A stretch of 24,870 bases of DNA. Origin: Hyphomicrobiales bacterium. Lineage in GTDB: Bacteria; Pseudomonadota; Alphaproteobacteria; Rhizobiales; Kaistiaceae. The DNA lies in NCBI GenBank assembly GCA_017305815.1, contig JAFKJZ010000333.1, positions 1-24,870 of the forward strand, in the 5' to 3' direction. Under the pieces are notes generated by a model. The model had not been told where the DNA came from. It ran no database searches and worked only from the letters and a program-made list of their open reading frames with translations. This document shows, piece by piece, positions 1-23,883 of this stretch (position 1 is the first letter of the stretch; every line of letters begins with the position of its first letter). The position numbers were made by a program, and so were the translations under genes.

Positions 1-692
1 TCGAGGGCGACGCCGGCGCGGGAAAGCTCCTGCTCGGCCAGGGTCGCGAATTCGATCATCAGCTCGTAGGAGGCTTCAGCCGTGTCGGCGAAGCTGAACA
101 GGCCGTGATTTTCGAGCCAGAGCCCCTCGCAGCCGGGATTGGCGCGATAGACCTTGTCGCCCTCGATCGAGAGGTCGAAGCCGGGCATGACATAGGGCAC
201 CCAGGCGAGGCGGTCGCCATAGACGCGCTTCACGGTCTCCTGCATGTCGGGTTGGTTGGCGAGCGCCATCGCCGCCGTCGCGTGCGTATGGTCGACGAAG
301 CGGAACGGCAGGAAGCCGTGCAGCAGCGCCTCGACGGAAGGATTGGGCGAGGCCGCGTCGAGCAGGGCGGAGCGCAGCAGCGCGACCATCTCGGGGTCGG
401 AGAGCTTGCCGCCGTCGCGCGCCGCGAGCAGCGGCTCCATCCGCACGGCCGGCAGGCCCGGCGCCTCGATCGTGTCGAGATCCCAGCCGCTGCCCTTGAT
501 GTGCATGATCTCGCTGCCGTCCTCGGCCGTCACCTTGGCCGAGGTATTGCCGCCGCCATGCAGCACGAGATCCGGATCCTGGCCGATGATGCGCGAGGTG
601 TAGATGCGCAGCCCGAGCGCTTCGCTCTGGCCGGCGGCAAGGGCTGCCTGGATGAAACGATTGGCCTCGTCGCCGTTCCAGCGGCTTTGCAT
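1..692 (-). CDS. Class II (RhaD/FucA-type) aldolase, N-terminal part of a probable aldolase-SDR fusion; cut by window edge
   Basis: The frame opens at an ATG (690-692) and is still open at residue 230 when it leaves the window. Class II aldolase signatures are clear: LHGGGNTS (44-51, phosphate loop), IKGSGWD (65-71), an acidic residue E121, DHTHA (H135 and H137) and LENHG (H196). These match the zinc ligands and catalytic glutamate of fuculose/rhamnulose-1-phosphate aldolases, which cleave ketose-1-phosphates to DHAP and an aldehyde. The N-terminus (SRWNGDEANRF, then YTSRIIGQDPDLVLHGGGN) resembles the rhizobial bifunctional aldolase/short-chain dehydrogenase proteins of about 700 residues, and the frame already exceeds a stand-alone FucA (about 215). 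The reductase half is therefore an inference, since it lies outside the window. The gene follows lsrB by 74 bp on the same strand, where lsrF sits in enteric lsr operons. Its Shine-Dalgarno is weak. It could instead belong to an unrelated rhamnose-type operon. Confidence 0.8.
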   Translation of the reverse strand, partial: MQSRWNGDEANRFIQAALAAGQSEALGLRIYTSRIIGQDPDLVLHGGGNTSAKVTAEDGSEIMHIKGSGWDLDTIEAPGLPAVRMEPLLAARDGGKLSDPEMVALLRSALLDAASPNPSVEALLHGFLPFRFVDHTHATAAMALANQPDMQETVKRVYGDRLAWVPYVMPGFDLSIEGDKVYRANPGCEGLWLENHGLFSFADTAEASYELMIEFATLAEQELSRAGVAL

Positions 693-726
693 GGGTCTGG
701 ATCCGTTTGTTTTGGGAAAATGGATC

Positions 727-750
727 GGGCGGCTCCGACTGGAGCCGCCC
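727..750 (-). terminator. Perfect 10-bp stem-loop after lsrB
   Basis: GGGCGGCTCC (727-736) and GGAGCCGCCC (741-750) form a perfect 10-bp stem around a 4-nt loop, 16 bp past the lsrB stop. On the minus strand it is followed by CGATCCATTTTCCC, a weak U-rich stretch. It may act as a partial terminator or 3' RNA stabiliser that gives lsrB more transcript than the downstream aldolase gene. Confidence 0.6.
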
Positions 751-766
751 GTATTGGCTTCGCGAA

Positions 767-1798
767 CTAGAAGTCGAAGTTGCCGATGTTTTCCTTGGTG
801 AACACGGTCCGCTCGGGCAGCAGCACGATGCCGTTGCCGTCGGCCTCGTAGTCATAGCCCTGGACGCTGTTCGGCGAGACTTCGATCGTGCCGACGCCCG
901 GAATGTCGAGCTTGTCGCCGACCTTCATCTTGCCGTTCTTCAGCACGTGCTCGGCGACATGGATCGAGATCTTGCCCTGCTGGGTGACGTCCCAGAGGCC
1001 GAAGCGCTTGATCGTGCCGCGCTCGACATAGGGGCGCATGACATTGGGGGTCGAGAAGCCGACGATGTTGACGCCATCGGCGCGCTTCAGGTTTTCCGCC
1101 GCCTGGGCTGCGGCCGGCAGCGCATTGGCGTCCGGCGCGATGATGATGTCGAGGTCGGGGTAGGTCTGCAGGATGCTTTCGGCCGTCTGCAGCGACTTCT
1201 GCGCGTCATTGTAGCCGTACTGGGTGGTGACGATCTCCCAGCCCGGATGCTCCTTGGCGATCTTCGCCTTGGCGGCTTCGGCCCAGGCGTTCTGGTCGGT
1301 GACGGTCGGGCTCGAATAGAAGAACGCCACCTTGGCCTTCTCCTTGGTCACGCCTTCCTTCGCCATGTCGACCAGCAGGCCGCCGAGCTGGTCCGGGGTG
1401 CCCTGGTTGATGTAGTAGCTGCGGCAGTCCGGGTTGACGTCGCTGTCCCAGGTCATGACCAGCACGCCGCGATCCATGGCGCGCTTCAGCGCCGGGCAGA
1501 GACCGTCGGGCGACACCGACGACACGACGATCGCGTTGTAGCCCTGGTTGACGTAGTTGTTGATGAACTGGACCTGGGCGGAGACGCTCGGCTCGGTCGG
1601 GCCGTCATAGGTGACCTTGGCGCCGACTTCCTCGCCGGCCTTGACCGCACCGGCGCCGCCGCTGGTGAAGAAGCCGACGCCGACCAGCTTCGGAATGAAG
1701 GCGATCTGGGATTCGGCCTGCGCCGCGCCCGAGGCGAGCATGGTGCCCGCGAGTAGCGTTGCCGCCATCAGTCCGGACTTCAGGAATTTCATCGTCAT
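767..1798 (-). CDS. lsrB: LsrB, periplasmic autoinducer-2 binding protein
   Basis: This 343-residue periplasmic receptor delivers AI-2 to the LsrACD importer. The start is the ATG at 1796-1798, 7-8 nt after a GGAGG; the longer upstream frame lies over lsrD and is not credible. A signal peptide (residues 1-28, ending AQA) precedes mature [13 protein letters not shown]. The six residues that contact AI-2 in enteric LsrB (K35, D116, D166, Q167, P220, A222) appear here as K37, D118, D168, Q169, P222 and A224, all at a constant offset of two. Long identities such as [48 protein letters not shown] and [20 protein letters not shown] make this a true LsrB rather than a generic ribose-type binding protein. 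It is the last transporter gene of lsrACDB and lies 13 bp after lsrD. Confidence 0.97.
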
Positions 1799-1811
1799 TG
1801 TCGTTTCCTCC

Positions 1812-2813
1812 TCAAAAGGCCGTCGCCTGATCGTTTCGTTTCTGTCGGGCGACAGCGATGAAATCGGCCAGCAGCGCGCTCCCGTGGCGCAATGCGACCG
1901 CCGCAACCAGCAAACCTCCCGAAAGCGCGCTGGAAATCTGGCTTGGTACCCCGCTCGCCTGCAGGCCCTGCTGCAGGTAGCCGATGACGAAGGTCGCGAG
2001 CAGCGTGCCGAGGATCGAACCCTGGCCGCCATAGATCGACGCGCCGCCGAGCACCGCCGCGGTGACGGCCGGCAGCAGGGTCGAGGCGCCGAGATCGACG
2101 CGGGCCGAGCCGAAATAGGCCGACATGACCAGGCCCGCGATCGCGGCGCAGACGCCGGTGATCACATAGGTGATGGTCTGGGTCGTCGCGACCGACAGGC
2201 CCGAATAGCGCGCGGCTTCGGCCGACTGGCCGATCAGGAACACGGCGCGGCCGAAACGGGTGAAGTGCAGCAGCACGACCAGCACGGCGGCGAGGCCGAG
2301 GAAGACGGCGAGCGGCGCCGGCAGGCCGAGGAACTCGGCATAGCCGAACGAGGTGAAGCTGGCGGGGAAATTGCCGATGCCCTCATAGCCGCCGGCGCCG
2401 ACGACGCCAGACAGCACCGTGGCGGCGCCCTGGAACAGATAGAGGCTGCCCAGCGTGACGACGAGCGGCTGGATCTTCGACAGATGGATGACGGTGGCGT
2501 TGAGCAGGCCGGCGAGGGCGCCGGCGACGAGCGCCAGGCCGATCGCCAGCGGCAGCGGCAGGCCGAAGAAGTTGGAGACGCCGAAGACGATGGCGCAGAG
2601 GCCGATCGCGGAGGCGAAGGAGACGTCGATGCCGCCGGCGATGATGACGAGCGTCAGCGCCAGCGCGACGATGCCGACCTGGACGAAGTCGGACGTGCCG
2701 TAGATGAGGTTGCCGACATTCAGGAAGCGCGGGTTGATGAAGCCGAACACGGCGAGCTCGGCAACGAGCATCAAGAACAGCGCCGCTTCCCAGCGGAAGA
2801 ACAGGTTTTTCAT
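1812..2813 (-). CDS. lsrD: LsrD, AI-2 ABC importer permease
   Basis: A 333-residue integral membrane protein of the BPD_transp_2 (ribose-type) family, close to the 330 residues of enteric LsrD. It has about eight to ten hydrophobic helices. Family-specific stretches include [69 protein letters not shown] and [22 protein letters not shown], which I recognise from enteric LsrD. With LsrC it should form the membrane channel for AI-2. Its ATG overlaps the lsrC stop (TCAT at 2810-2813, ATGA on the coding strand), implying translational coupling. Confidence 0.95.
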
Positions 2814-3865
2814 CGGCTTGCCTCCGCCAGCAGGGTCTTGTCGGCGATCTTGTCGGCCGGGTTTCCGGGCGCCTCGGCGCTGTGCGGCGCGCGGGCATGG
2901 ACGGCGTAGCGGCGGGCGCGGATGCGCCGGTCGATCAGGAGCCGGATGCGGCCGTCGAGCAGCAGCACGATCAGCAGGATCGCGCCGGCGATGAAGTCGT
3001 TCCAGAACGCCGGGATCTTCAGGAAGACGAGCGCGCTGTCGATCGAGGTCAGGAAGATCGCGGCGGTGAAGACGCCGGCGACCGAGCCGCTGCCGCCGAG
3101 CAGGCTGACGCCACCGAGCACGTTGACGGCGATCGCCTTCAGCTCGATGCCGTTGCCGGCCTGGTTGGGGATGAAGCCGATCTGCGCCGCGAAGATCAGG
3201 CCGGCGATCGCCGCGCAGGCGCCCGATGCGACGAAGGCGGTGAACTGCACGCGCCGGACCGGCACGCCGAGATGACGCGCCGCCTCGCGGTTGTCGCCGA
3301 CGGCGTAGAAATAGCGGCCGAAGCGGGTGCGGCGCAGGAAGAACCAGGCGATGGCGAACAGCGCCAGCACGGTGACGGTCAGGATCGAGATGCCGAAGCC
3401 GATGCTGCCGGCGAGCGCTTTCAGATCCTGCGGCAGGTCCTCGATCCAGCGGCCGCCGGTCTGGATCAGCATGATGCCGCGATAGAGGCCGAGCGTGCCG
3501 AGGGTGGCGACGATCGAGGGGATGCGGAGATAGGCGACGAGCAGGCCGTTCACCGCGCCGGCAACGATGCCGGTCAGGATGCAGAGCGCGATGGCGAGCG
3601 GCAGGCTGACGCCGGCATTGAGCGACAGGCCGAGCGTCGCGGCGCTCAAGCCCAGGATCGAGCCGCTGGAGACGTCGATGTTGCGCGTCAGGATGACAAG
3701 CATCGTGCCGAGCGAGATCAGGAGCAGCACGAGGCTGTTCGACAGGATCACCGAGGCGGTGGCGGCCGAGAGATAGCCGGGCGCGGCGAAGCCGAGCGCC
3801 AGGCAGGCGACGGCCATCACCAGCACCAGCATGATGACGCGGTTGCGGGCGATGATGTTAAGCAT
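2810..3865 (-). CDS. lsrC: LsrC, AI-2 ABC importer permease
   Basis: A 351-residue BPD_transp_2 permease that pairs with LsrD. The ATG at 3863-3865 gives MLNIIARNRV, matching the start of enteric LsrC (MLKFIQNNR); a longer frame to 3994 only adds out-of-frame lsrA sequence. Diagnostic stretches include ILTRNIDVSSGSI, IVATLGTLGLYRGIML, GDNREAARHLGV, AAQIGFIPNQAGNGIELKAIA, NVLGGVSLLGGSGS and PAFWNDFIAG. The C-terminus is a charged cytoplasmic tail rich in R, A and P. The start overlaps the lsrA stop by 8 nt and the stop overlaps the lsrD ATG, so lsrA, lsrC and lsrD are probably translationally coupled. Confidence 0.95.
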   Translation of the reverse strand: MLNIIARNRVIMLVLVMAVACLALGFAAPGYLSAATASVILSNSLVLLLISLGTMLVILTRNIDVSSGSILGLSAATLGLSLNAGVSLPLAIALCILTGIVAGAVNGLLVAYLRIPSIVATLGTLGLYRGIMLIQTGGRWIEDLPQDLKALAGSIGFGISILTVTVLALFAIAWFFLRRTRFGRYFYAVGDNREAARHLGVPVRRVQFTAFVASGACAAIAGLIFAAQIGFIPNQAGNGIELKAIAVNVLGGVSLLGGSGSVAGVFTAAIFLTSIDSALVFLKIPAFWNDFIAGAILLIVLLLDGRIRLLIDRRIRARRYAVHARAPHSAEAPGNPADKIADKTLLAEASR

Positions 3866-5354
3866 GGGCCTGCTCCCCCGCGCCGAATGCCAGGCGGGCA
3901 ATCGCGTCGACGCTGATCTTGTCGGTGAGTTCGCCGCCGAGCTGGCCGAAGGCCATGACGGTGACGCGGTCGGCGAGCAGCTCGATCTCGTCAAAATCGG
4001 ACGAGATCAGGATGACGGCGACGCCATCGGCCGCGAGTTGGCGGATCAGCGCGTAGATGTCGTTGCGTGCCGCCACGTCGACGCCGCGCGTCGGTTCGTC
4101 GAGCACGAGCACCTTGGGTTTCGCCGACAGGCATTTCGACATCAGCACCTTCTGCTGATTGCCGCCGGAAAGCGCCTTGGCCGCTTGGCCGGGGCCGGTG
4201 CACTTGATGCCCATGCTCTGGCGGAAGCCGTTGAAGAGGCCGCGCTCGCGGCCGGGCCGCAGCAGGAAGGGCAGGCGGTGGATCAGGTAGGATGAGGTGT
4301 TCCAGTAGAGCGGCGCATCGAGGAACAGGCCGTTCTGCTGGCGGTCTTCCGGCAGGTACACGAGGCCGGCGTCGATGCAGCGGCGCGGCGAGCGGTTCGA
4401 AAGCTCGACGCCGTCGAGTGTGACCGAGCCGCCGCTCTGGCGGCGCAGGCCGAACAGGGTTTCGGAGAATTCGGTGCGGCCGGCGCCGACGACGCCGGCA
4501 AGGCCCAGCACTTCGCCGGCGCGCACATCAAGGCTGATATCGCGAAACCCTTCGCCGCTCAGCTTGCGCACCGAGAGGCGCACGGCGCCGTCGTCGCGGC
4601 CGGACTTCGCGGCGACGACCGGCGTGGCGCCCGTGGCGACGCGGCTCATCGCGTCGATGATCTCGGCGTCGCTGTAGCCATCGAGCGGGCCGCTCAGGAC
4701 CACCGCGCCGTCGCGCAGCACGCTGATCGTGCCGCAGATCTCGCGGATCTCGCGCAGCTTGTGCGAGATGAAGAAGATGCCGACGCCCTGGGCCTGCAGC
4801 TTGCGGACGCGCTGGAAGAGGGCGTGCACCTCGAAGGGCGTCAGCGCCGAGGTCGGCTCGTCGAGGATCAGCACGCGCGCTTCGCGGATCAGGCCGCGCA
4901 GGATCTCGACGATCTGGCGCTCGGCGATTTCCAGTGTCGCCGCCTGCGCGTCGAGGTCGAGGGTGACGGAGAGTTCGGCGATCAGCTGCTCGACCCGCTT
5001 GCGCAGCGCGCGCGGCGACGGGCGCAGGCCGAGGCAGATGTTCTCCAGCACCGACTGGTTGCCGAGGATGTGCGCTTCCTGCGGCACCAGATAGAGGCCG
5101 AGCTGCTGCGCCAGCGCCGGCGAGGCATGGGTGAGCTTCTCGCCGTTGACCTCGATCGAGCCGGCATTGGCCGGCACGAGGCCGGACATGATCTTCATCA
5201 GGGTGGACTTGCCGGCGCCGTTGCCGCCGAGCAGCGCATGCACCTCGCCCTTCTGCAAGGCGAGCGAAACCCCCTTCAGGACCGGAACGGGACCGTAGGA
5301 TTTCCATATGCCGGTGAGCTGTGCAGCCCTCCCGGCCGCTGTGTCCGCAGTCAT
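3858..5354 (-). CDS. lsrA: LsrA, AI-2 ABC importer ATPase (two nucleotide-binding domains)
   Basis: A 498-residue double ABC ATPase that energises AI-2 import. Domain 1 has Walker A GGNGAGKST (43-51), a degenerate signature LEIAERQ (141-147) and Walker B LILDEP (162-167). Domain 2 has a lysine-free Walker A (GLAGVVGAGRTE, 284-295), a full signature LSGGNQQ (395-401) and Walker B VLVLDEPTRGVD. The asymmetric pattern is normal for sugar-type (CUT2/RbsA-like) ATPases. The assignment to LsrA rather than RbsA rests on the operon (lsrC, lsrD and lsrB downstream; lsrR and lsrK divergent) and on length (511 in E. coli). The ATG at 5352-5354 follows a modest AGGTGCGGA. It is the first gene of the minus-strand operon, read from the shared spacer with lsrR. 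Confidence 0.93.
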   Translation of the reverse strand: MTADTAAGRAAQLTGIWKSYGPVPVLKGVSLALQKGEVHALLGGNGAGKSTLMKIMSGLVPANAGSIEVNGEKLTHASPALAQQLGLYLVPQEAHILGNQSVLENICLGLRPSPRALRKRVEQLIAELSVTLDLDAQAATLEIAERQIVEILRGLIREARVLILDEPTSALTPFEVHALFQRVRKLQAQGVGIFFISHKLREIREICGTISVLRDGAVVLSGPLDGYSDAEIIDAMSRVATGATPVVAAKSGRDDGAVRLSVRKLSGEGFRDISLDVRAGEVLGLAGVVGAGRTEFSETLFGLRRQSGGSVTLDGVELSNRSPRRCIDAGLVYLPEDRQQNGLFLDAPLYWNTSSYLIHRLPFLLRPGRERGLFNGFRQSMGIKCTGPGQAAKALSGGNQQKVLMSKCLSAKPKVLVLDEPTRGVDVAARNDIYALIRQLAADGVAVILISSDFDEIELLADRVTVMAFGQLGGELTDKISVDAIARLAFGAGEQAHA

Positions 5355-5430
5355 TCCGCACCTGTTCAGATGTCTCTTGTTGCTTTCAAGTGATCACAAG
5401 ATTCGAGGGGCGTCAATATGGTCAGATCTG

Positions 5431-5459
5431 GCAATATCGCGATGCGGTCTCGATATTGC
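5431..5459. promoter_or_regulatory. 9-bp inverted repeat, candidate LsrR operator
   Basis: GCAATATCG (5431-5439) and CGATATTGC (5451-5459) are perfect inverted copies separated by 11 bp, so their centres are 20 bp apart (two helical turns). Another GCAATAT follows at 5463-5469. It lies mid-spacer where a dimeric or tetrameric SorC-family repressor would be expected. Confidence 0.5.
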
Positions 5460-5531
5460 GGTGCAATATAAGGATTTTATTGGATTTCTGGCGGTTGTGC
5501 CGGCTTCCAAACGCAGGCCGGGCTTGCGCGG

Positions 5532-5560
5532 TTGACGTATCAAATGTTTTTACGATATCG
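5532..5560 (+). promoter_or_regulatory. Possible lsrR promoter
   Basis: TTGACG (5532-5537) is followed after 16 bp by GATATC (5554-5559), a poor -10 match. The predicted start would fall at about 5566, inside the GTGATCAC palindrome, which suits repression. The call is read by eye from loose consensus matches. Confidence 0.3.
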
Positions 5561-5596
5561 ATGTGATCACAAGTCGCGAGAAGGGAAGCTCGGCGG

Positions 5597-6544
5597 ATGG
5601 CCTTGGACAGCAACGAGTGGAGCTATGGCGATGCCGACGAGGAGATCCTCACGCGCATCGCCTGGTACTATTACAATGACGGCCTGACGCAGAACGAGAT
5701 CGGCGAAAAGCTGAACATGTCGCGGATCAAGGTCTCGCGCCTGCTCGAGAGCGGCCGGCGATCCGGCATCATCCAGGTCCGCATCAACTCGCGCTATCAG
5801 GGCTGCCTGTCGCTCGAGCGCGAGATCAAGAGCCGCTACGGCTTGCTCGAAGCCTATGTCGTGCCCGAATTGCCGGAGCAGAGTTCGAGCGATCGGCTCG
5901 GCCAGGCGGCGGCGCAGTTCCTGATGCAGCGGCTGCAGCCGGACGACCTGCTCGCCGTCGGCTGGGGCGCCACGGTCAGCAACGCCATCCAGCGCCTCGG
6001 CCATCTCGCCAATGAACGCAATATCGGCTTGGTCAGCCTGACCGGCGGCGTCGGCACCTATGTCGACGGCATGCGCACGGCCAACTGGGGCAGTAGCGTC
6101 CATCTCGTGCCGGCCCCGCTGGTGGTGCGCGACCCCGACGTCGCCAAGAACCTTTCCTCCGAGCCTGCCGTCGCCAACCTGCTCGATATGGCGCTGAACG
6201 CTTCGTACCAGCTGGTCGGCATCGGCGAGCTTTCGGGCGCCTCGACGGTGGTGCGCTCCGGCTATGTGACGCCGGACGAGGTCGAGCCGCTGCGCCGCAA
6301 GGGCGCCGTCGGCGACATCCTCTGCCAGTTCTTCAACGACAAGGGCGAAGTGCTGGATCTGCAGCTGCACGACCGGGTCATCGGCGTGAAGCTCGCCGCG
6401 CTGTCGCGGGCGGAAAAGGTCGTCGCGGCGGCCGGCGGGCTGGAAAAGGTGCCGGCCATCCATGCCGCGCTCAAGGGGAAGTTCGTCGGCATCCTGATCA
6501 CGGATGAAACGACGGCGCTGGGTCTGATGGACCTCAAGGACTAG
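5597..6544 (+). CDS. lsrR: LsrR, SorC-family transcriptional repressor of the lsr genes
   Basis: A 315-residue regulator, the same size as enteric LsrR (317). An N-terminal helix-turn-helix (about 28-52: DGLTQNEIGEKLNMSRIKVS) is followed by a SorC sugar-phosphate-binding domain. Shared stretches with enteric LsrR include RIAWYYYNDGLTQ, SGIIQVRINSRYQGCL, LTGGVGTY, VPAPL, IIRSGY-like VVRSGYVTP and RRKGAVGDIL. In the family, phospho-AI-2 binding releases LsrR from DNA and derepresses both its own operon and lsrACDB. The gene is divergent from lsrA and 10 bp upstream of lsrK. Its ribosome binding site is weak (AAGGGAAG lies about 11 nt or more upstream), which may keep repressor levels low. Confidence 0.94.
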   Translation: MALDSNEWSYGDADEEILTRIAWYYYNDGLTQNEIGEKLNMSRIKVSRLLESGRRSGIIQVRINSRYQGCLSLEREIKSRYGLLEAYVVPELPEQSSSDRLGQAAAQFLMQRLQPDDLLAVGWGATVSNAIQRLGHLANERNIGLVSLTGGVGTYVDGMRTANWGSSVHLVPAPLVVRDPDVAKNLSSEPAVANLLDMALNASYQLVGIGELSGASTVVRSGYVTPDEVEPLRRKGAVGDILCQFFNDKGEVLDLQLHDRVIGVKLAALSRAEKVVAAAGGLEKVPAIHAALKGKFVGILITDETTALGLMDLKD

Positions 6545-6554
6545 GGAGAGGGTT

Positions 6555-8120
6555 ATGGCGGGGACATATCTTCTGGCGGTCGACGCCGGGACGGGAAGCG
6601 GCCGCGCGGTCGTCTTCGACGCGGCCGGCAACCAGATCGCCGCCGCCCAGCACGAGTGGTGGCACAAGCCTGATCCGCGCTTCGACGGCTCGATGGATTT
6701 CGACGTCGAGGGCAACTGGGCCCATCTCGCCCGCGCCATCCGCCAGGCGATTTCGAGCGCCGGCATCTCGGCCGCCGACATCGCCGCCGTCAGCGCCACC
6801 AGCATGCGCGAGGCGCTCGTCGTCTATGACGCCGAGGGCCGGGAAATCTGGGCCTGCGCCAATGTCGACAGCCGCTCGAACAGCGAAGTGCGCGAGCTGA
6901 AGCAGGAATTTCCCGAGCTGGAGGCGAAGCTCTACCAGCATTCCGGCCAGACCTTCGCGCTCGGCGCGCTGCCGCGCCTGCTCTGGCTGAAGCGCAACCT
7001 GCCCGAAGTCTATGACCGCATGCACCGGATCAGCATGCTGTCGGACTGGGTGCTGGCGCGCCTCTCCGGCGTCCTCGTCAGCGAACCGTCCAATGCCGGC
7101 ACCACCGGCCTGCTCGATTTGCGCGAGCGGCGCTGGCTGCCGGAGGCGATGCGCTGGGCGGGTATGCGCGACGACATCTTCCCCGAGACGGTCGAGCCCG
7201 GCGTGGTGATCGGCCATGTCACCGCCGCCGCCGCCGAGGCGACCGGGCTCCAGGCCGGCACGCGGGTCGTCGCCGGCGGCGGCGACTGCCAGATCGGCAC
7301 GGCCGGCCTCGGCGTCGTCAACAAGGGCGATTGCGCGGTGCTCGGCGGCACGTTCTGGCAGCAGATCGTCAATGTCGACCAGACGCTGACCGATCCCTCC
7401 ATGAACCTCCGCATCAATCCGCATGTCGTCGACGGCCTCAACCAGGCGGAGGCGATCAGCTTCTTCGTCGGCATCGTCATGCGCTGGTTCCGCGACAGCT
7501 TCGGCGCGGCCGAGGTGGCGGCGGCCAACGCCGGCGGCGGCGATGCCTATTCGCTGCTCGAGGCGCAGTCGGCGCATGTCCCGCCCGGCGCCTATGGCAT
7601 CATCCCGGTGTTCTCCGACGTGATGCGCTACGGCAAGTGGTACCACGCGGCGCCGTCGCTTCTGAACCTCTCGATCGATCCGGAAAAATCCGGCAAGGCG
7701 GCGATCTTCCGCGCCCTGCAGGAGAATGCGGCGATCGTCGCGGCGCGCAATCTCGCCGCCATCTTCAAGCTCTCCGGCGTGACGCCGAAGCAGATTGTCT
7801 TCGCGGCCGGCGCGGCCAAATCGGCCCACTGGGCGCAGATCCTGTCGAGCGCGACCGGCTTGCCGGTGGTGACGCCGGTGGTCAAGGAGGCGACCGCGCT
7901 CGGCTGCGCCGCCGCCGCCGCGATCGGCGCCGGCCTGCAGCGCGACTTTGTTTCCGCCGCCGAAAACTGGGTGCGCTGGGACCGGCATTTCGAGCCGGAA
8001 GCGGCCCACAAGGCGATCTATGACGACGCCGGCGAGCGCTGGGCGCGGGCCTATGCCTTGCAGCGGCAGCTCGTCGACGAGGGCATCACCACGTCGATGT
8101 GGAAGGCGCCCGGCCTCTGA
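6555..8120 (+). CDS. lsrK: LsrK, autoinducer-2 kinase (FGGY family)
   Basis: A 521-residue FGGY carbohydrate kinase that phosphorylates the linear form of AI-2 (DPD) on C5, trapping it and creating the inducer of LsrR. Visible motifs are VDAGTGSGR (9-17, phosphate loop), SATSMREALVVYD, ACANVDSRS, SNAGTTGLLDL, GGGDCQIG (241-248, D244 the likely catalytic base), LGGTFWQQ and VKEATALGC. The end, TTSMWKAPGL, is nearly identical to that of E. coli LsrK (530 residues), which separates it from xylulose or glycerol kinases. The ATG follows GGGAGAGGG closely. Translation is probably coupled to lsrR, whose stop lies 10 bp upstream. Confidence 0.96.
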   Translation: MAGTYLLAVDAGTGSGRAVVFDAAGNQIAAAQHEWWHKPDPRFDGSMDFDVEGNWAHLARAIRQAISSAGISAADIAAVSATSMREALVVYDAEGREIWACANVDSRSNSEVRELKQEFPELEAKLYQHSGQTFALGALPRLLWLKRNLPEVYDRMHRISMLSDWVLARLSGVLVSEPSNAGTTGLLDLRERRWLPEAMRWAGMRDDIFPETVEPGVVIGHVTAAAAEATGLQAGTRVVAGGGDCQIGTAGLGVVNKGDCAVLGGTFWQQIVNVDQTLTDPSMNLRINPHVVDGLNQAEAISFFVGIVMRWFRDSFGAAEVAAANAGGGDAYSLLEAQSAHVPPGAYGIIPVFSDVMRYGKWYHAAPSLLNLSIDPEKSGKAAIFRALQENAAIVAARNLAAIFKLSGVTPKQIVFAAGAAKSAHWAQILSSATGLPVVTPVVKEATALGCAAAAAIGAGLQRDFVSAAENWVRWDRHFEPEAAHKAIYDDAGERWARAYALQRQLVDEGITTSMWKAPGL

Positions 8121-8177
8121 TCTCGCGATTTCGCCGCGCTCCTGGCGTGGCGACGACCTGTTTGCAAAGGAGTGAAA

Positions 8178-8495
8178 ATGCTCATCCAGATGGTGACCAT
8201 CATGGTCAAGCCGGGCCACGCCGACGATTTTCTCGAGGCCTTCCGCATCAACTACGAAGGCACGCGCCAGGAGCCGGGCAATCTGCGCTTCGACGTGTTG
8301 CGCGACCCGGACGACGCCAACAAGTTCCTGATCTACGAAGTCTTCAGGTCGGAAGCCGCGCTCGAGGAACACCGCCGCACGCCGCATTACCAGAAATGCG
8401 TCAGCCTGCTGGAGCCGATCCAGACCGGCCCGCGCACCAAGGTGTTCTATCATGCCGAGATGGCGGATTTCCTCGCTGACGCGACGGCCGACTAG
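8178..8495 (+). CDS. lsrG: LsrG, phospho-AI-2 isomerase (ABM-fold)
   Basis: A 105-residue protein of the antibiotic-biosynthesis-monooxygenase fold. LsrG converts phospho-DPD to 3-hydroxy-2,4-pentadione-5-phosphate. Matches to the 96-residue E. coli protein include EPGNLRFDVLRDPDD, IYEVFRSEAALEEH, RTPHYQKCVSLLEP and TGPRTKVF. I place the start at the ATG 8178, 6-7 nt after AAAGGAG; a GTG two codons upstream lies inside that ribosome binding site. It follows lsrK by 57 bp, whereas in enterics lsrG ends the lsrACDBFG operon, so the gene has been moved to the regulator-kinase side. No lsrF follows. A hairpin overlaps the stop codon. Confidence 0.93.
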   Translation: MLIQMVTIMVKPGHADDFLEAFRINYEGTRQEPGNLRFDVLRDPDDANKFLIYEVFRSEAALEEHRRTPHYQKCVSLLEPIQTGPRTKVFYHAEMADFLADATAD

Positions 8496-8531: not shown

Positions 8532-10073
8532 TCAGCCCAGCGCCCCGGCGGTGAGCTTGCCGCCGATCGCGGCCGGGCCGGACGAAACGGTGGCGTCCGG
8601 CAGGCTCTCGAACCGCGCCAGTTGTTCGCCGAGCGCAGGGATGTCGTCGATCGTCGCCATGTCGATGCGTCCGACGATCCGGCCGCGGGCCAGCACCACC
8701 ACCTCGTCGGCGACGTCGAAGATCTCCTGCACCTCGGTGCAGAAGACGACGACCGAGCGGCCCTGGGCGGCGAAGTCGCGCAGCAGCTCGTAGATGTCGG
8801 CCTTGCTGGAGATGTCGACGCCGCGCGTCGGCTCCTCGATCACGACGATGTCGGTGTTCTCCTCCATCGAGGCGCCGAGCACGACCTTCTGCTGGTTGCC
8901 GCCGCTGAGCGACGTGATCGGGTGCTCGATGCTGCCCGTCTTCACCCGGTAGCGGGCGACGCCCTGGCGCGCCAGCGCTTCCAGCCGCGCGGGATCGAGC
9001 AGCTTCGTGGCGCCGCCAAGCGCGCCGAGGCCGAGCCGGGCGGCGAGGTTCTCGCCGACGCTCATATTGTGGAAAACCGTGTGCCGGCGGCTGGCCGCGA
9101 GATAGGAGACGGTGGTGCGGCCGCGCGGCGTCAGGCTGCGGCGGTCCGCCTCGCACATCGGGCGGAAGGCGCCGATCGCCTGCGCCAGTTCGCGGGCGCC
9201 GGATCCCTCGACGCCGGAAAGCGCGACGATGCGACCCGGCATCAGGTCCATCGAGATATCGCGAAACGCGTTGAGCCGGTCGGCGCAGTTGCTCAGCCGC
9301 CAGACCGGCGATAGAGCCTGGCCGGACGCGCTTCTTGCGCCCGAGCGGACGGCTTCCGGCTTCTTGTCGCCGGCATGGCTTGCCGTCAGATGCGCGGCGA
9401 TCGCCGTTTCGCTGATCTCCGCCCCGTTGATCTCGGCGCTGATGCGGCCGTCGCGGAGAACCAGAACGCGATCGCAGCAGCGGACGAAGTCGTTCAGCCG
9501 ATGCGTGATCAGCAGGACGATGCGGCCGTCCGCTGCCAGTTCGCCCATGGTGGTGAACAGCGCTTCCGATTCCTGCTCGGTCAGCGCCGAGTTCGGCTCG
9601 TCGAAGAGATAGACGTCGGCGTCGCTCAGCATGGCGCGGGCGATCTCGACGCGTTGCTGCACGGCGAGCGACAGGTCGGTCAGTTCGTAATGCGCGAAGG
9701 CGGCGATGCCGAGCCTGGTCAGCACCGCCTTGGCCGCCGCCGGATCGACGGCGATGCGGCCGAACCAGTTTCCTTCGCGGCCGACGGCGAGGTTCTGCTC
9801 GACGGTCATGTTCGGCCAGACATGCGGCTCCTGGTGCACGACGGCGACGCGCCGCCAGACATCGGCGACCGGCCCATCCGGGCGGAGCAGGGTGATCTCG
9901 CCGCTATCCGCCTGTTCCTCGCCGGCGAGCATCCGCATCAGCGTGCTCTTGCCGGCGCCGTTCGGGCCGGCGATGCCGATGATGCTGCCGGACGAGATGT
10001 CGAGATCGAGCCCGTTCAGCGCCCGCGTCGCGCCATAGCGCTTGGTGATGCCCTTGCCGGTGAGGCGGATCAT
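8532..10073 (-). CDS. CUT2-like ABC importer ATPase (two nucleotide-binding domains)
   Basis: A 513-residue sugar-type double ABC ATPase. The start at 10071-10073 gives MIRLTGKGITKRYGATRALNG and overlaps the permease stop (ATGA); the longer frame upstream is permease antisense in another frame. Domain 1 has Walker A GPNGAGKST (36-44, K42) and Walker B VYLFDEP (154-160), with NSAL where TSAL is usual. Domain 2 has a lysine-free Walker A (ALSGVEGSGARE), a signature LSGGNQQ (389-395) and a Walker B reading VVIEEPTRGVD, with E413 where aspartate is usual. It powers the importer encoded by the two upstream genes. The substrate is unknown; the neighbouring hyuAB genes hint at an amide or heterocycle, but the fold family mostly handles sugars. 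It ends 36 bp from lsrG, convergently. Confidence 0.88.
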   Translation of the reverse strand: MIRLTGKGITKRYGATRALNGLDLDISSGSIIGIAGPNGAGKSTLMRMLAGEEQADSGEITLLRPDGPVADVWRRVAVVHQEPHVWPNMTVEQNLAVGREGNWFGRIAVDPAAAKAVLTRLGIAAFAHYELTDLSLAVQQRVEIARAMLSDADVYLFDEPNSALTEQESEALFTTMGELAADGRIVLLITHRLNDFVRCCDRVLVLRDGRISAEINGAEISETAIAAHLTASHAGDKKPEAVRSGARSASGQALSPVWRLSNCADRLNAFRDISMDLMPGRIVALSGVEGSGARELAQAIGAFRPMCEADRRSLTPRGRTTVSYLAASRRHTVFHNMSVGENLAARLGLGALGGATKLLDPARLEALARQGVARYRVKTGSIEHPITSLSGGNQQKVVLGASMEENTDIVVIEEPTRGVDISSKADIYELLRDFAAQGRSVVVFCTEVQEIFDVADEVVVLARGRIVGRIDMATIDDIPALGEQLARFESLPDATVSSGPAAIGGKLTAGALG

Positions 10074-11134
10074 GTCGCCGCCCCCGCGCCGGAGCGGACC
10101 GAACGCTGGCCGGCGCTGCGGATCAGCTTCTGCGAGACGAGATCGAGCCAGACGGCGCCGATCGTCACCAGGCCGATGAAGAGAAGCTGGACGAAGGAGG
10201 AGACGCCGAGAAGCGCGAGGCCGTTGTTGAGCAGCGCCAGCAGGATCACGCCCAGAAGCGTGCCGAGGATGGTGCCGCGGCCGCCATTCAGGCTGGCGCC
10301 GCCGATGACGACCGCCGCGATGACCTGGAAGGACAGCGAGCTCGACTGGGTCGGGCCGACCGAGCCGACATAGGAGAAGTCGAGGATGCCGGCGAGCCCG
10401 GCCATCAGCGCGCTCAGGATGAAGACGACATACTTGTACTTCTTGAGCGGCAGGCGGGCGACGCGCGCCGCCTCGGCATTGCCGCCCATCGCCATTAGGC
10501 GAAAGCCGAAGACGGTGCGGTGGCGCAGGATCCAGAACAGGATGAAGGCGCCGACCAGCCAGAGCGTCTCGACGGGAATGTTGTAGGCCATCAGCGCGCC
10601 GCCGAGGCCGTGGAAGAACGACAGCTCCCACTCCGGCGGCAGCGGGTCGTTATAGGCCGGCGTGAAGGTGGTCGCGTTGCTGATCAGGAGCGACAGGCCG
10701 TCGGCGACGTTCAGCATGCCGAGCGTGGTGATGAAGGAGGGCAGGCCGGCGCGCACGGTCAGGAAGCCGTTGAGCAGACCGGTCAACAGGGCTACGCCGA
10801 GGCCGGCGGCGAGCGCGACCAGCAGGGACGTCGTGAAGGGCAGGCTGCCGCCGCCGAGCCAGAGCGTCGCCGTCACCGTGCCGGCCAGTCCGTAGACGGC
10901 GCCGACGGAAAGGTCGATCTCGCCGAGCAGGATCACCAGCATCTGGGCGAACGCCACCATGCCGAGCGCCACCATGGAGCGGACCAGCGTCAGCATGTTC
11001 TCCGGGCTGAGAAAGGCCGAGCGCTGCGACTGGACGATGGCGGCGATGAGAAGGATTGCCAGCGCCAGGCCGAGGGTTCGCAGGCTGTTCAGGACTTTTT
11101 GCTGCCCCAGGAGGGCAAGGGCGGATTGGGTCAT
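10070..11134 (-). CDS. CUT2-like ABC importer permease
   Basis: A 354-residue BPD_transp_2 membrane protein with about ten hydrophobic helices. Family landmarks are LVILLGEIDLSVGAVYGLAGT, LTVRAGLPSFITTLGML, AMGGNAEAARVARLPL, VVIGGASLNGGRGTILGT and LLNNGLALLGVSSFVQ. It is the only permease in this operon, so it probably works as a homodimer, as is common for RbsC-type systems; region 1 uses two different permeases instead. GGAG lies 7 nt before the ATG. It follows the binding-protein gene after an 86-bp gap containing a stem-loop, and its stop overlaps the ATPase start. Confidence 0.9.
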   Translation of the reverse strand: MTQSALALLGQQKVLNSLRTLGLALAILLIAAIVQSQRSAFLSPENMLTLVRSMVALGMVAFAQMLVILLGEIDLSVGAVYGLAGTVTATLWLGGGSLPFTTSLLVALAAGLGVALLTGLLNGFLTVRAGLPSFITTLGMLNVADGLSLLISNATTFTPAYNDPLPPEWELSFFHGLGGALMAYNIPVETLWLVGAFILFWILRHRTVFGFRLMAMGGNAEAARVARLPLKKYKYVVFILSALMAGLAGILDFSYVGSVGPTQSSSLSFQVIAAVVIGGASLNGGRGTILGTLLGVILLALLNNGLALLGVSSFVQLLFIGLVTIGAVWLDLVSQKLIRSAGQRSVRSGAGAAT

Positions 11135-11169
11135 GGTGGCTCCGGGACGGCAGAGTCAGGGGACAGGCG

Positions 11170-11202
11170 AAAACGGCGCGGAGATGCTGGATCGCCGCGC
11201 CG
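11170..11202 (-). terminator. Stem-loop plus T4 between binding-protein and permease genes
   Basis: Read on the minus strand, CGGCGCGG (11202-11195) pairs with CCGCGCCG (11181-11174) around a 12-13-nt loop and is followed at once by TTTT (11173-11170). This resembles a partial intrinsic terminator that would leave more transcript for the binding protein than for the membrane and ATPase genes. Confidence 0.5.
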
Positions 11203-11220
11203 CCATGTCGGCGCTGGAGG

Positions 11221-12342
11221 CTAGCGGGCGGCCTTGAGGCGCTCGCGGCCTGCGTCCACGGTCAGTTCGTTCTCGCCACCGGCCTGGGTGATGACGATCG
11301 GGCGCAGGAACTGCATCGGATCGGCCGGCGTCTCGCCCTTGGCCAGGAACTGGGCGCACTGCTCGACGGGAGCCTGGGCCTGGTTGTCGAAGCCCTGGTC
11401 GATCGTGACGAGCGTCGTGCCCTCGCCGATGGAGTCGAGGATGGCGCCGCTGACGTTGAAGCCGGAAGCGTACACCTTGCCGTTGAGCTTCAGGTTGCGG
11501 ATGACGTTGCCGACGCCCTCGATGCCCTGGTCGGTGTGGAAGAACAAGGTAACGTCGGGGTTGGCGGTCAGGAAGGGCGTGACCGAGTTCAGCACTTCCT
11601 GCGTCGTGAAGTTCTTGCCGGTCGGGATGCCGCTCTTCACGTCGTTGAAGAACTTCGCGTCGGGGAAGACCGACTTGTAGCCTTCCATGAAGCCTTCCAT
11701 GCGCGCCTGCGCCCAGGGCTGGTCGGGAGCGCCGCTGCCCATGGCGATCTTGTTGACCTGAACGCCCTTTTCCTTGATCAGCCGGGCGGTCGTCTCGCCG
11801 TTGATCTTGCCGGCCTGGACCTCGTTCAGGGCGTAGAAGGCGAAGCGCTTGGCCTTCGGCGCGTCGATGTTCAGCGTGAACACCGGAATGCCGGCGTCGG
11901 CATATTTATTGATGATGCCGGTGAACTGGTTTGGCAGCGGCGGCTGCAGCGCCAGGCAGTCGACCTGGCCGGAATTCAGCAGCGTCTCCAGCTCGGAAAG
12001 CTGCTTGGCGGTATCGGGATTGACCGGGCCGACCATGCGGCACTCGGCCGAAAGCGCCTTGTTGGCGTTCTCGCAGCCCTTCTTGGTGCCGATGCGCATT
12101 TCCGCGCCCTGGATCGGCAGGCCGGTGCCCTCGATGCCGACCACGATGTTGGCGGTCTCGCCCGCCTCGAGCTTCTTGACGATGCGCGGAGCAAGCTTGA
12201 ACTCGCCCCAGGGCATGGTGCGGCTCTTCGCACCGTCCGGCACGGTGATGCCGGCGGCATGCGCCGATGTGGCTGCGCCGCAAACGCCGGCAAGCAGCGC
12301 GGATCCGATTACCGCGAGCATGCGGCTTCTCAGGCAGGACAT
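11221..12342 (-). CDS. Periplasmic substrate-binding protein (ribose/galactose-type, Peripla_BP_4-like)
   Basis: A 373-residue secreted binding protein. The ATG at 12340-12342 follows GGAG by 8-9 nt. A signal peptide (MSCLRSRMLAVIGSALLAG..., cleavage near residue 29, SAHA/AG) is clear. Family features are VVGIEGTGLPIQGAEM, GQVDCLALQPP, GIPVFTLNIDAP, LFFHTDQGIEGVGNVIR, YASGFNVSGAILDSIGEG and TLVTIDQGFDNQAQAPVEQ. The mature protein has several cysteines (for example KKGCENANKALSAEC), so a disulfide is possible. It is the first gene of the importer operon, with its own promoter and the GCATAACAGAAC word about 30 bp upstream. I do not recognise the ligand. Confidence 0.9.
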   Translation of the reverse strand: MSCLRSRMLAVIGSALLAGVCGAATSAHAAGITVPDGAKSRTMPWGEFKLAPRIVKKLEAGETANIVVGIEGTGLPIQGAEMRIGTKKGCENANKALSAECRMVGPVNPDTAKQLSELETLLNSGQVDCLALQPPLPNQFTGIINKYADAGIPVFTLNIDAPKAKRFAFYALNEVQAGKINGETTARLIKEKGVQVNKIAMGSGAPDQPWAQARMEGFMEGYKSVFPDAKFFNDVKSGIPTGKNFTTQEVLNSVTPFLTANPDVTLFFHTDQGIEGVGNVIRNLKLNGKVYASGFNVSGAILDSIGEGTTLVTIDQGFDNQAQAPVEQCAQFLAKGETPADPMQFLRPIVITQAGGENELTVDAGRERLKAAR

Positions 12343-12546: not shown

Positions 12547-13368
12547 CTAGCGGCGGGGCGGCAGCGCGGCGTGCGTCGGGCCGCCGAGCAGGACGCTGAC
12601 CCGGTCGGCGTGGGCGCGGACGATGGCGCCGAGCCGGTGGATATCCTCGTCGGTGCCGAGCTTCATCGTGGTGACGCTGATCGCCGCCACGGCGTCGCTG
12701 CTGCGGTCATGGATCGCGGCGCCGACACAGAGCACGCCGACATTGTCCTCCTCGTTGTCGAGGGCATAGCCGCGTTCGGCGACGATCTTCAGCTCGTCGA
12801 TCAGCGCCGCCGGGCTGGTCAGCGTATGCTCTGTCCGGCGCGGCATGCCGAGCCGTTTCAGGATGGCCTCGACCTCGTCCTTCGGCAGGCCGGCGAGGAG
12901 CGCCTTGCCGACCGAGGAGCAATGCGGCAGCTCGCGCCTGCCGAGTGACGACATCATCCGGAACGGGCCGGGCGCATCGACGCGCCCGATCGCCACCGCA
13001 TAGCCGTCGTCGAGCACGGCGAGGCGCGAGGTCAGCCGCGTCGTGTCGGTCAACTGCTGGAGGATCGGGGTGGCGAACTGGGTGATGCCCATTCCGGCGA
13101 CGGCCCGGTCGCCGAGATGCACCAGCGCCAGGCCGAGCCGGTAGAGCCGGCCGTTGCCGATGCGGGTGTCGGCAACGAAGCCGCGCGCCACCATCGTTTG
13201 CAGCAGCGTGAAGGCGGTGCTGCGCGAGACGCCGATGGCGGCGGCGATCTCGCCGACTCCCATGCCCTTGCTGTCGCCTGCGCCCAGCGCCTCGAGCACG
13301 TCCAGCGCCCGGCCGACGCTGCGCAGCGGGTATTTGTCGTTGGGGCTCTCTTCCGGGGTCGTCGACAC
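12547..13368 (-). CDS. IclR-family transcriptional regulator
   Basis: A 273-residue regulator with an N-terminal winged helix (about 15-70; recognition region VGEIAAAIGVSRSTAFTLLQTMVARGFV) and a C-terminal IclR effector domain (HCSSVGKALLAGLP, GYALDNEEDNVGVLCVGAAIHD, ISVTTM). The start is the GTG at 13366-13368, with AAGAGG about 8 nt upstream; longer in-frame extensions begin without a ribosome binding site and do not resemble the family. IclR proteins usually bind palindromes and respond to small catabolic intermediates. Its position between the importer and hyuAB, and the shared GCATAACAGAAC word in both control regions, suggest it governs both. The effector is unknown. Confidence 0.9.
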   Translation of the reverse strand: MSTTPEESPNDKYPLRSVGRALDVLEALGAGDSKGMGVGEIAAAIGVSRSTAFTLLQTMVARGFVADTRIGNGRLYRLGLALVHLGDRAVAGMGITQFATPILQQLTDTTRLTSRLAVLDDGYAVAIGRVDAPGPFRMMSSLGRRELPHCSSVGKALLAGLPKDEVEAILKRLGMPRRTEHTLTSPAALIDELKIVAERGYALDNEEDNVGVLCVGAAIHDRSSDAVAAISVTTMKLGTDEDIHRLGAIVRAHADRVSVLLGGPTHAALPPRR

Positions 13369-13454
13369 GTTTGCGCCTCTTGCTTTTTGGTCTCGCCTGA
13401 AACTGCAGGTCGGATCGGGCCATTCGTACAACCGATAAGCGGAACGATGGCCCG

Positions 13455-13484
13455 TTGACAACATCCACGAACTGCTCCTACGAT
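13455..13484 (+). promoter_or_regulatory. Probable hyuAB promoter
   Basis: A perfect TTGACA (13455-13460) is followed after 18 bp by TACGAT (13479-13484, 4 of 6). The start would fall near 13491, inside the first AACAGAAC word. The overlapping reverse sequence TTGTCA could serve iclR on the other strand. Confidence 0.45.
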
Positions 13485-13486
13485 TT

Positions 13487-13518
13487 GCATAACAGAACCA
13501 TGTTCGGCTTAACAGAAC
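13487..13518. promoter_or_regulatory. Repeated operator words near the hyuA promoter
   Basis: GCATAACAGAAC (13487-13498) is identical to the word upstream of the importer operon. TAACAGAAC recurs exactly 20 bp further on (13510-13518), and GAAC-CAT-GTTC between them forms a small palindrome. The second TAACAGAAC begins about 25 bp past the -10, and the copy at the importer promoter about 26 bp past its -10, so the layout is conserved. Confidence 0.6.
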
Positions 13519-13591
13519 AGATAATGGTCTCGACAGGGAAATGCAGGATGCGGTCCGAAAGCTCGACTTGCGGGACCGGGGGAGGCGCTTG

Positions 13592-13708
13592 ATGCCGATC
13601 CCGTCCGAACTGGCCAATGCCGTCTTGGTTCGAGCCGCCTGGCGCTCCCGGCGGATCGCGATGTCGCCGCCCCGTGACGCGCGCCGGGCGATCGCCACGC
13701 TTTTCTAG
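13592..13708 (+). CDS. Possible 38-codon leader ORF upstream of hyuA
   Basis: An ATG at 13592 is preceded by a very strong GGGGGAGG about 7 nt upstream and opens a 38-residue frame (begins MPIPSELANAVLV, ends IATLF). The product is basic and arginine-rich with no recognised domain. It lies in the long hyuA leader, 101 bp before hyuA, and is followed by an imperfect hairpin. It could be a leader peptide or chance; the ribosome binding site is the only positive evidence. Confidence 0.3.
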   Translation: MPIPSELANAVLVRAAWRSRRIAMSPPRDARRAIATLF

Positions 13709-15873: not shown

Positions 15874-15887
15874 GCGGAGAGAGAACC

Positions 15888-17991: not shown

Positions 17992-18010
17992 TGTATTCTC
18001 GGTGATTGGT

Positions 18011-18029
18011 CAGAATTTCAACCATTCTG
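18011..18029 (+). repeat. Inverted repeat abutting the uxs start codon
   Basis: CAGAAT (18011-18016) and ATTCTG (18024-18029) are perfect inverted arms with a 7-nt loop, ending right at the ATG 18030. In RNA it would cover the region where a ribosome binding site should be; none is visible there. It could be a DNA operator half-site pair or an RNA control hairpin. Confidence 0.35.
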
Positions 18030-21879: not shown

Positions 21880-21914
21880 CCAAGACGAATGAGAATTCAG
21901 CAAGGAGGCTCAGC

Positions 21915-23339: not shown

Positions 23340-23883
23340 GGCGCGTCGGGCCTCGACCCGGCTGAAGGCCGGCGGGCTTGCGATCCTGATGGCGTCCGCC
23401 CTGGCCGGAGCGGCCGCGGCATCCACCACAGCCGCGGCGGACAATGGTTTGCCGGCGGGGGCGACGCCCCTGTCCGCGGCCGAGCTCTACGCGCTCTACC
23501 ACGACAAGAGCTGGCAGTGGCCGGACGGCGCCGGCCGGATGGACACCGCCGACCGGCGTTTTACCGCCTGGGTCGACGGCGAGAAGGGTAAGTCCTGGGC
23601 CGAAGGTCGCTGGCAGATCACCGATGCCGGCAATCTGTGCTTCACCGCCGACTGGCATGTCGGCCAGGAGGTCTTTCCCGCAAGGACCTGCTTCGCCCAT
23701 CGCGTCGCCGGCGGCACGATCTACCAGAAGAAGGAGCCGGACGGGCAATGGGTCGTGTTCCGCCACGCCCCCCTCCGCGCCGACGACGAGGCGACGAAGC
23801 TCGTCTCGGAGGACATCGTTTCCGGTCGCCTCGATGAGTTCAAGTCGGCGCCTCCGGCTCTGAAGCAACAAGCCAAGCAGTGA
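23320..23883 (+). CDS. Secreted DUF995-like protein
   Basis: A 187-residue exported protein of unknown function. The ATG at 23320 has an excellent AGGAGG 5 nt upstream, inside the 3' end of ugd (20-nt overlap); the longer upstream frame is ugd out of frame. A signal peptide with twin-basic start and an alanine-rich core (about 15-40) is followed by LSAAELYALYHDKSWQWPDGAGRM, KSWAEGRWQITDAGNLCF, CFAHRV and GGTIYQKKEPDGQWVVF, which I recognise as the rhizobial DUF995 pattern. C107 and C124 could form a periplasmic disulfide. In this operon it may assist polymer export, modification or surface retention, but no activity is known to me. Confidence 0.8.
   Translation: MRGWNSEARRASTRLKAGGLAILMASALAGAAAASTTAAADNGLPAGATPLSAAELYALYHDKSWQWPDGAGRMDTADRRFTAWVDGEKGKSWAEGRWQITDAGNLCFTADWHVGQEVFPARTCFAHRVAGGTIYQKKEPDGQWVVFRHAPLRADDEATKLVSEDIVSGRLDEFKSAPPALKQQAKQ

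Follow-up and report, generated by a model that had tools for sequence, protein, structure and literature searches.

Introduction

In the lsr operon of Escherichia coli K-12 (lsrKR-ACDBFG), the last step of autoinducer-2 (AI-2) breakdown falls to LsrF, a coenzyme A (CoA)-dependent thiolase that transfers the acetyl group from the LsrG product to CoA, with release of dihydroxyacetone phosphate (DHAP) (PMC8016206). Here we describe an lsr locus in a Kaistia draft genome in which a class II aldolase gene stands in the place of lsrF. The window, by which we mean the whole stretch of 24,870 nucleotides analysed, comprises positions 1-24870 of contig C51 (30,283 bases) of a draft assembly with 719 contigs, 92.07% completeness and 5.28% contamination. 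Because of the gene order, the mutual exclusion of the aldolase and lsrF and the co-occurrence of the aldolase with lsrK, we lean towards reading the locus as an LsrF-less variant of the AI-2 operon in which the aldolase takes over LsrF's last step.

Alphaproteobacteria that import AI-2 and make none are read as eavesdroppers, Sinorhizobium meliloti being the known case, and a 2008 paper on the lsr genes of this species is reportedly about its response to AI-2. We found no explanation in the literature of how importing Alphaproteobacteria end the signal inside the cell, and no report of a class II aldolase at the position of LsrF; our coverage was incomplete, and we do not claim that the arrangement is unreported. 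Rezzonico and Duffy gave the operon of S. meliloti and Rhodobacter as lsrBDCARKG, and the word aldolase is absent from the accessible part of their article (PMC2561040); with the operon printed in this form, its lack of lsrF was already visible in the literature of 2008. According to Quan and Bentley, lsrF and lsrG are the least common lsr genes, and one of their figure legends gives lsrACDBFG for several organisms, a Rhodobacter sphaeroides strain among them (PMC3420918). Cereibacter johrii (L050), a relative of R. sphaeroides, carries the aldolase. An enzyme of a different fold in LsrF's place offers a testable answer to the fate of phospho-AI-2, and offers it in a laboratory strain.

Class II aldolases are described from other pathways. 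In the DHAP shunt, such an enzyme acts with MtnK and MtnA and splits 5-deoxyribulose- or 5-methylthioribulose-1-phosphate (PMC12632272, PMC6079011). DrdA of Bacillus thuringiensis and Ald2 of E. coli have 5-deoxy five-carbon 1-phosphates as substrates (PMC6079011, PMC12632272), and DrdA binds the DHAP enediolate to its metal through two oxygens and uses a glutamate as the base (PMC6079011). RhaEW, a fusion of rhamnulose-1-phosphate aldolase and lactaldehyde dehydrogenase from the same superfamily as the lsr aldolase, differs from the latter in carrying a short-chain dehydrogenase/reductase (SDR) domain and in sitting in rhamnose loci; the SDR RhaW oxidises the aldehyde product of cleavage and does not reduce the substrate (PMC3870299). 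RhaW is the sole SDR of the wider family whose tests we considered.

Results

A class II aldolase gene follows lsrB in the Kaistia locus

The locus occupies the left 8.5 kb of the window and shares with the E. coli operon the transporter, kinase, regulator and isomerase genes as well as the divergent layout. It departs from that operon in having a class II aldolase gene for lsrF, in placing lsrG with lsrR and lsrK rather than behind lsrF, and in belonging to a draft genome with no match to LuxS. The minus strand carries the ATPase gene lsrA (3858..5354; NF011967, 696.6 bits, cut-off 586), the permease genes lsrC (2810..3865; NF011961, 393.1 bits, cut-off 388) and lsrD (1812..2813; best match NF011612, 378.9 bits, cut-off 500), lsrB for the AI-2 binding protein (767..1798; NF011937, 630.7 bits, cut-off 384) and the start of the aldolase gene (1..692, residues 1-230). 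On the plus strand lie lsrR, encoding a SorC-family regulator (5597..6544; PF04198, best match NF011947, 319.4 bits, cut-off 486), the AI-2 kinase gene lsrK (6555..8120; NF008187, 837.2 bits, cut-off 528) and lsrG (8178..8495; PF03992, sole match NF007791, 108.9 bits, cut-off 135), whose start codon was picked from its ribosome-binding site and whose product is assigned as the isomerase of phosphorylated 4,5-dihydroxy-2,3-pentanedione (P-DPD). A first-pass annotation of the window had named these lsr genes and an aldolase after lsrB, and this layout stands: LsrA, LsrB, LsrC and LsrK exceed the curated NCBIfam cut-offs, and for LsrD, LsrR and LsrG the named family is the best match, with scores under the respective cut-off. 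The eight genes form a recurring module, aldolase-lsrBDCA/lsrRKG.

In a computed alignment, the window's LsrB is 77.6% identical to that of E. coli and keeps six of the six residues that contact AI-2. LsrK is 94% identical to its counterparts in Kaistia defluvii, K. adipata and K. terrae, and genomes assigned to the window's genus have the aldolase at positions that agree with those in these three species; on these grounds we assign the draft genome to Kaistia. By family membership, LsrACDB would import AI-2, LsrK would phosphorylate it and LsrG would isomerise the phosphate to P-HPD, which is 3-hydroxy-2,4-pentanedione-5-phosphate. The possibility that a rhamnose locus had been misread as lsr was considered and rejected, as the best matches are LsrB, LsrK and LsrG rather than RhaS, rhamnulokinase or mutarotase. 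The aldolase adjoins lsrB, not rhamnose genes.

The first-pass annotation had also found no lsrF, and this extends beyond the window: in the draft genome, 92% complete, the best match to NF006081 reaches 13.6 bits against a cut-off of 297. Three PF01791 matches elsewhere in the genome were inspected as lsrF candidates and proved to be two DeoC proteins and one tagatose-bisphosphate-aldolase-like protein. A locus with the same gene order, aldolase included, is found on pSymB of S. meliloti 1021 (L011), where the best LsrF score, with pSymB alone searched, is 112.5 bits and under the cut-off; its aldolase, from a different genus, has 416 residues and is about 72% identical over the window's part.

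The aldolase gene ends without a reductase domain

The aldolase reading frame (3-692, minus strand) matches PF00596, and its best NCBIfam match is NF006192, 'bifunctional aldolase/short-chain dehydrogenase', at 302.8 bits over model positions 1-229, with the aldolase half present. From this N-terminal part, the protein had been suspected of being an aldolase-SDR fusion, which the remainder of the gene contradicts. Position 1 of the window is the end of C51, and the gene is therefore cut after 230 residues. Searched against the genome, the K. adipata protein places its residues 1-230 at the end of C51 (93% identical) and its residues 236-415 at the start of contig C563 (6-548; 92% identical), and a database protein of 415 residues, P0002, matches the C51 half at 226 of 230 positions and the C563 half at 179 of 180. 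The frame on C563 stops after residue 415, with the SDR domain absent. Since the remainder on C563 ends in this way and P0002 spans both halves, an SDR fusion concealed beyond the contig end was rejected. Neither an SDR nor lsrF was seen in the first 6,000 of the 6,261 bases of C563, on which the aldolase is followed by an oxygenase-like gene and, further on, a PLP (pyridoxal phosphate)-enzyme-like gene (labels by eye).

The same length recurs among relatives. Two complete lsr-linked homologues match positions 1-429 and 1-428 of the 685-residue NF006192 fusion model. We inspected 47 lsr loci for the aldolase and dropped six (five with no aldolase in the stretch, one with a cut gene); each of the 41 complete aldolases that remain has 413-425 residues, and none has an SDR domain. 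The SDR domain is likewise missing from all 120 best listed database homologues, of which 119 show PF00596 alone and one PF00596 with PF12840. The lsr-type protein can be aligned over most of its length to the RhaEW model TIGR02632. All 41 lsr aldolases keep the metal-binding histidines and catalytic glutamate (Glu121, His135, His137 and His196), and all have Tyr167, presumably the equivalent of FucA Tyr113, where nine RhaEW-like rows have tryptophan.

In databases, several of these SDR-less proteins go by the name 'short-chain dehydrogenase' or 'rhamnose utilization protein RhaD (predicted bifunctional aldolase and dehydrogenase)'. Our results correct such annotations: lsr-type aldolases have no dehydrogenase and, where the locus was seen, are part of the lsr module.

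The aldolase and lsrF exclude one another across lsr loci

To place the window's locus among others, we took the best 80 of at least 424 confirmed relatives of its LsrK, with one genome per species, and sought the lsr genes, lsrF and the aldolase at each by tblastn; this sample under-represents other lsr branches. An aldolase gene lies directly after lsrB at 35 of the 80 loci, each from another genome and all from Alphaproteobacteria by name, with Kaistia, Shinella, Rhizobium, Agrobacterium, Thalassospira, Arsenicitalea, Celeribacter, Cereibacter and Thioclava among the genera. Given this recurrence, its adjacency to lsrB is not chance. lsrF was found at 35 loci, 31 of them gammaproteobacterial and four alphaproteobacterial (one Pseudovibrio, three Cohaesibacter). 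No locus holds both genes, and 10 hold neither. Among the last, L043, L044 and L048 are cut by contig ends, and L071, L073, L091, L093 and L094 are lsrG-lsrK pairs of Serratia with no other lsr gene detected by tblastn within 10 kb. LsrG is present at all 35 aldolase-type loci. On an LsrK tree of 88 rows built by a quick method, a single change accounts for the lsrF and aldolase states once 10 undecided rows are excluded.

The pattern extends to whole genomes. LsrF over cut-off is missing from 31 of the 35 aldolase-type genomes, and the lsrF-type genomes searched yielded LsrF in 8/8 and an aldolase match in 0/8. Within the window's genus, 7 of 14 genomes (three of them the Kaistia genomes of the 80-locus set) hold LsrK over cut-off and exactly those 7 hold the lsr-type aldolase; LsrF over cut-off occurs in none of them, neither in the draft genome nor in the other six. 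The single LsrF genome among the 14, G439, yielded no match to LsrK at E <= 1e-100. Beyond these, the aldolase order appears at six plasmid loci, that of S. meliloti 1021 pSymB included, two identified by tblastn and four by annotation, one of the latter labelled unverified Roseateles. A class II aldolase in LsrF's place, first remarked on in the window, thus recurs regularly within one branch of the lsr operons. Many soil and marine bacteria may accordingly end the AI-2 signal by a second route that does without CoA.

The closest fused relatives include enzymes linked to a salvage pathway

Within the aldolase-type genomes, the next-closest relative of the lsr aldolases is a stand-alone Celeribacter paralogue (L139), 54% identical; next come aldolase-SDR fusions, 45-48% identical, whose open frames span about 685-780 residues. 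The fusions in Shinella (L136) and Rhizobium subbaraonis (L137) adjoin a SorC-family regulator, an ABC (ATP-binding cassette) transporter, mtnK and mtnA; the L136 neighbours were labelled by profile scan (MtnK, TIGR01767, 493.1 bits, cut-off 275; MtnA, NF004326, 501.8 bits, cut-off 271) and those of L137 by eye. An Ensifer plasmid fusion (L143) lies beside annotated mtnK and mtnA, a Ruegeria plasmid fusion (L144) beside mtnA (463.9 bits), and in Shinella a fusion of a more distant clade adjoins LsrF. The kinship to 5-deoxyribose salvage enzymes proposed in the first-pass annotation is therefore upheld, in that mtn-linked rhizobial fusions of the DHAP shunt type are near relatives of the lsr aldolase, which differs from them in having no SDR half and no mtnK or mtnA seen beside it; no mtn genes were found in the annotated stretches of four plasmid lsr loci.

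A tree of 70 rows, which includes the Kaistia homologues and leaves aside the window's cut gene, unites the 41 lsr aldolases in one group (support 98/95). Moving outward come L139 (91/60), the mtnA-linked fusion L144 (98/98) and the mtnK/mtnA-linked fusions (84/68), a group of ten rows in which mtnK and mtnA were seen beside three (L136, L137 and L143) and the others were assigned by similarity. RhaEW-like fusions, labelled by similarity and including the C513 gene of the window's own genome, form a separate clade (100/99). The SDR label, counted with L156 omitted, changes once in each of four reruns that either kept or dropped long rows; L162, L134, L135 and L140 were omitted from these reruns. 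Because every outer group is fused, loss of the domain is simpler than gain, and the tree implies one loss of the SDR on the way to the present lsr aldolases.

A separate reductase encoded elsewhere could reduce the methyl ketone of P-HPD, leaving the aldolase to split the resulting 5-deoxypentulose-1-phosphate into DHAP and acetaldehyde, which keeps the chemistry of the first-pass annotation and moves the reductase off the protein. We consider this unlikely. Its appeal lies in the kinship to fused aldolases that adjoin mtnK and mtnA, in the K. defluvii locus, where an SDR gene stands directly behind the aldolase, in strain XES5, where an aldehyde dehydrogenase gene lies two genes off on the opposite strand, and in the cluster around L139 (6340-11294), where a stand-alone lsr-type aldolase is accompanied by a D-2-hydroxyacid dehydrogenase-like gene and an LsrK-like kinase (487.2 bits, cut-off 528). 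We surveyed the flanks of the 35 aldolase-type loci, at most three genes per side, with a simple codon-usage gene finder (173 genes; some contigs end early), however, and no gene family recurs in more than five flanks, a number reached by two groups, one SDR-like and one of ABC ATPases. The SDR-like genes, at 5 of the 35 loci, sit in scattered places and on both strands, and the two other Kaistia loci examined showed no counterpart of the K. defluvii gene; we accordingly rejected the idea that the module has a conserved reductase or aldehyde dehydrogenase as its neighbour. With no SDR domain in any of the 41 complete genes or in that of the window's genome, reduction by a fused reductase followed by cleavage is left without support. 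The Celeribacter cluster itself may be a sister route with a genuine reductase.

A proposed hydrolytic cleavage of P-HPD

P-HPD can be viewed, by chemical reasoning, as the 4-keto form of a 5-deoxypentulose-1-phosphate, the substrate type expected of the aldolase's near relatives; the lsr aldolase would therefore meet a substrate one oxidation step above that of the DHAP shunt. The enzyme quite probably breaks the same bond as LsrF and frees DHAP. In our model, the DHAP half would be held on the metal through the three histidines, the hydrated methyl ketone would serve as the 'aldol' hydroxyl and the C3-C4 bond would be broken. Among the conceivable fates of the other half, acetate, formed by hydrolysis, seems the likeliest, an outcome that we hold possible and that would need neither CoA, a reductase nor an aldehyde dehydrogenase. 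Because a ketone-level substrate would give the acid directly, an SDR would have nothing to do; its loss fits hydrolysis better than it fits reduction plus aldol cleavage, which makes acetaldehyde and needs a reductase. We tentatively suggest that a 5-deoxypentulose-1-phosphate aldolase became a metal-dependent beta-diketone hydrolase (P-HPD + water -> DHAP + acetate) and lost its SDR since no aldehyde arises. If so, this would be a new activity for the aldolase superfamily, as far as we know.

The lsr aldolase shares its operon position and expected bond with LsrF, and differs from it in fold, LsrF being of the class I aldolase type, a barrel, and CoA-dependent (PMC2728841, PMC8016206). These shared features would also suit a metal-dependent thiolase that converts P-HPD and CoA to DHAP and acetyl-CoA, convergent with LsrF. 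This is a very improbable alternative; weak evidence against it is that no CoA-using enzyme appears, by title, among the 50 fold matches listed in each of two comparisons. The same fold matches include DrdA, ribulose-phosphate 4-epimerase, APIP and pyruvic oxime dioxygenase. Epimerases and dehydratases in the fold family could point to cleavage, dehydration or epimerisation of P-DPD or an isomer, ahead of LsrG or in parallel with it, yet LsrG accompanies the aldolase at 35 of 35 loci and P-DPD would have, on chemical grounds, no aldol bond at a place that fits a DHAP aldolase; we regard such a role as highly doubtful.

Several observations weigh against cleavage of P-HPD by the aldolase in LsrF's stead. 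LsrD, LsrR and LsrG score under their curated cut-offs. Two otherwise complete modules of the aldolase branch, L025 and L037, have neither the aldolase nor lsrF, and the genome of L044 also holds neither; because 53 aldolase residues (1-53) remain behind lsrB at L037, this locus has lost the gene, and the three cases together mean that the aldolase step can be dispensed with. LsrF is encoded away from the lsr locus in four of the 35 aldolase-type genomes (three Shinella, one Celeribacter), and one of the six plasmid records, Shinella p1_Teo12, holds LsrF over cut-off far from it. On the phylogenetic side, the branches of L139 and L144 are long, the Shimodaira-Hasegawa-like approximate likelihood ratio test (SH-aLRT) supports the lsr group alone at 93, 89, 22 and 95 in the four reruns, the 22 arising without L139, and no mtn genes were seen in the stretches around the fusions L141, L142 and L145. 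Within the 60-row alignment A3, the three histidines are invariant and Glu121 nearly so. As for the chemistry, the established reaction of class II aldolases is retro-aldol cleavage, and we did not find beta-diketone hydrolysis by such an enzyme in the literature.

The modules without an aldolase, together with the functional variety of the fold family (pyruvic oxime dioxygenase, for example), leave some room for an aldolase that serves another substrate imported or made with AI-2, with P-HPD or P-DPD handled otherwise or left. Set against this are the one-to-one co-occurrence with lsrK in the genus (7/7), the mutual exclusion with lsrF across all 80 loci and the position behind lsrB at 35 loci from several alphaproteobacterial groups, and we judge this explanation distinctly unlikely. 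We therefore retain the aldolase as the putative replacement of LsrF. Judged from sequence, the substitution is well supported and the function of the aldolase soundly inferred, with hydrolysis as one possible reaction.

LsrF clusters outside lsr loci

Shinella entries L135 and L140, listed together with L134, combine a DeoR-type regulator, an LsrF-family gene, an aldolase-SDR fusion, an ABC transporter, an FGGY kinase and a GlpD-like dehydrogenase (labels partly by eye). In G439, LsrF also adjoins such a fusion. In Celeribacter, L138 (5077-10181) combines LsrF (501.7 bits) with a SorC-like regulator (by eye), a GlpD-like dehydrogenase and an FGGY kinase; the lsr locus of that genome is of the aldolase type. 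LsrF may also act in a process other than AI-2 breakdown. Quan and Bentley mention a 'putative Lsr system in Rhizobiales' whose genes include one for a glycerol-3-phosphate dehydrogenase and one for an LsrF-like aldolase (PMC3420918); this system resembles the LsrF-fusion-GlpD cluster of Shinella.

Control elements and neighbouring genes

The divergent control region (5355..5596) between lsrA and lsrR contains TGATCACA at 5391 and 5564, candidate LsrR sites. A third copy in the window lies inside lsrD at 2159; K. defluvii has two copies at similar spacing, and K. adipata and K. terrae have one each.

The gap between lsrB and the aldolase gene (693..766, minus strand) forms a GC-rich hairpin with a minimum free energy of -29.0 kcal/mol. 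In all 36 gaps examined (35 loci and the window), folding energies are -18.7 or lower, and z is below -2 in 33 of the 36 against 100 dinucleotide shuffles each, with sequences that differ. The hairpin may govern the relative amounts of LsrB and aldolase mRNA.

Next to lsrG, on the minus strand, the window carries a second sugar-type ABC transporter (8532-12342; ATPase, permease and binding protein), followed by an IclR-type regulator gene (12547-13698) beside a hydantoinase A and B pair (13810-17654, plus strand). Among the flanks of the 35 aldolase-type loci, the ABC ATPase group of 5 loci is the only transporter family with wider recurrence. The plus-strand region at 18006-24847 has the look of a polysaccharide cluster, judged by eye from its reading frames, with two nucleotide-sugar epimerase/decarboxylase-like genes, a large glycosyltransferase gene, and UDP-glucose dehydrogenase-like and glycosidase-like genes.

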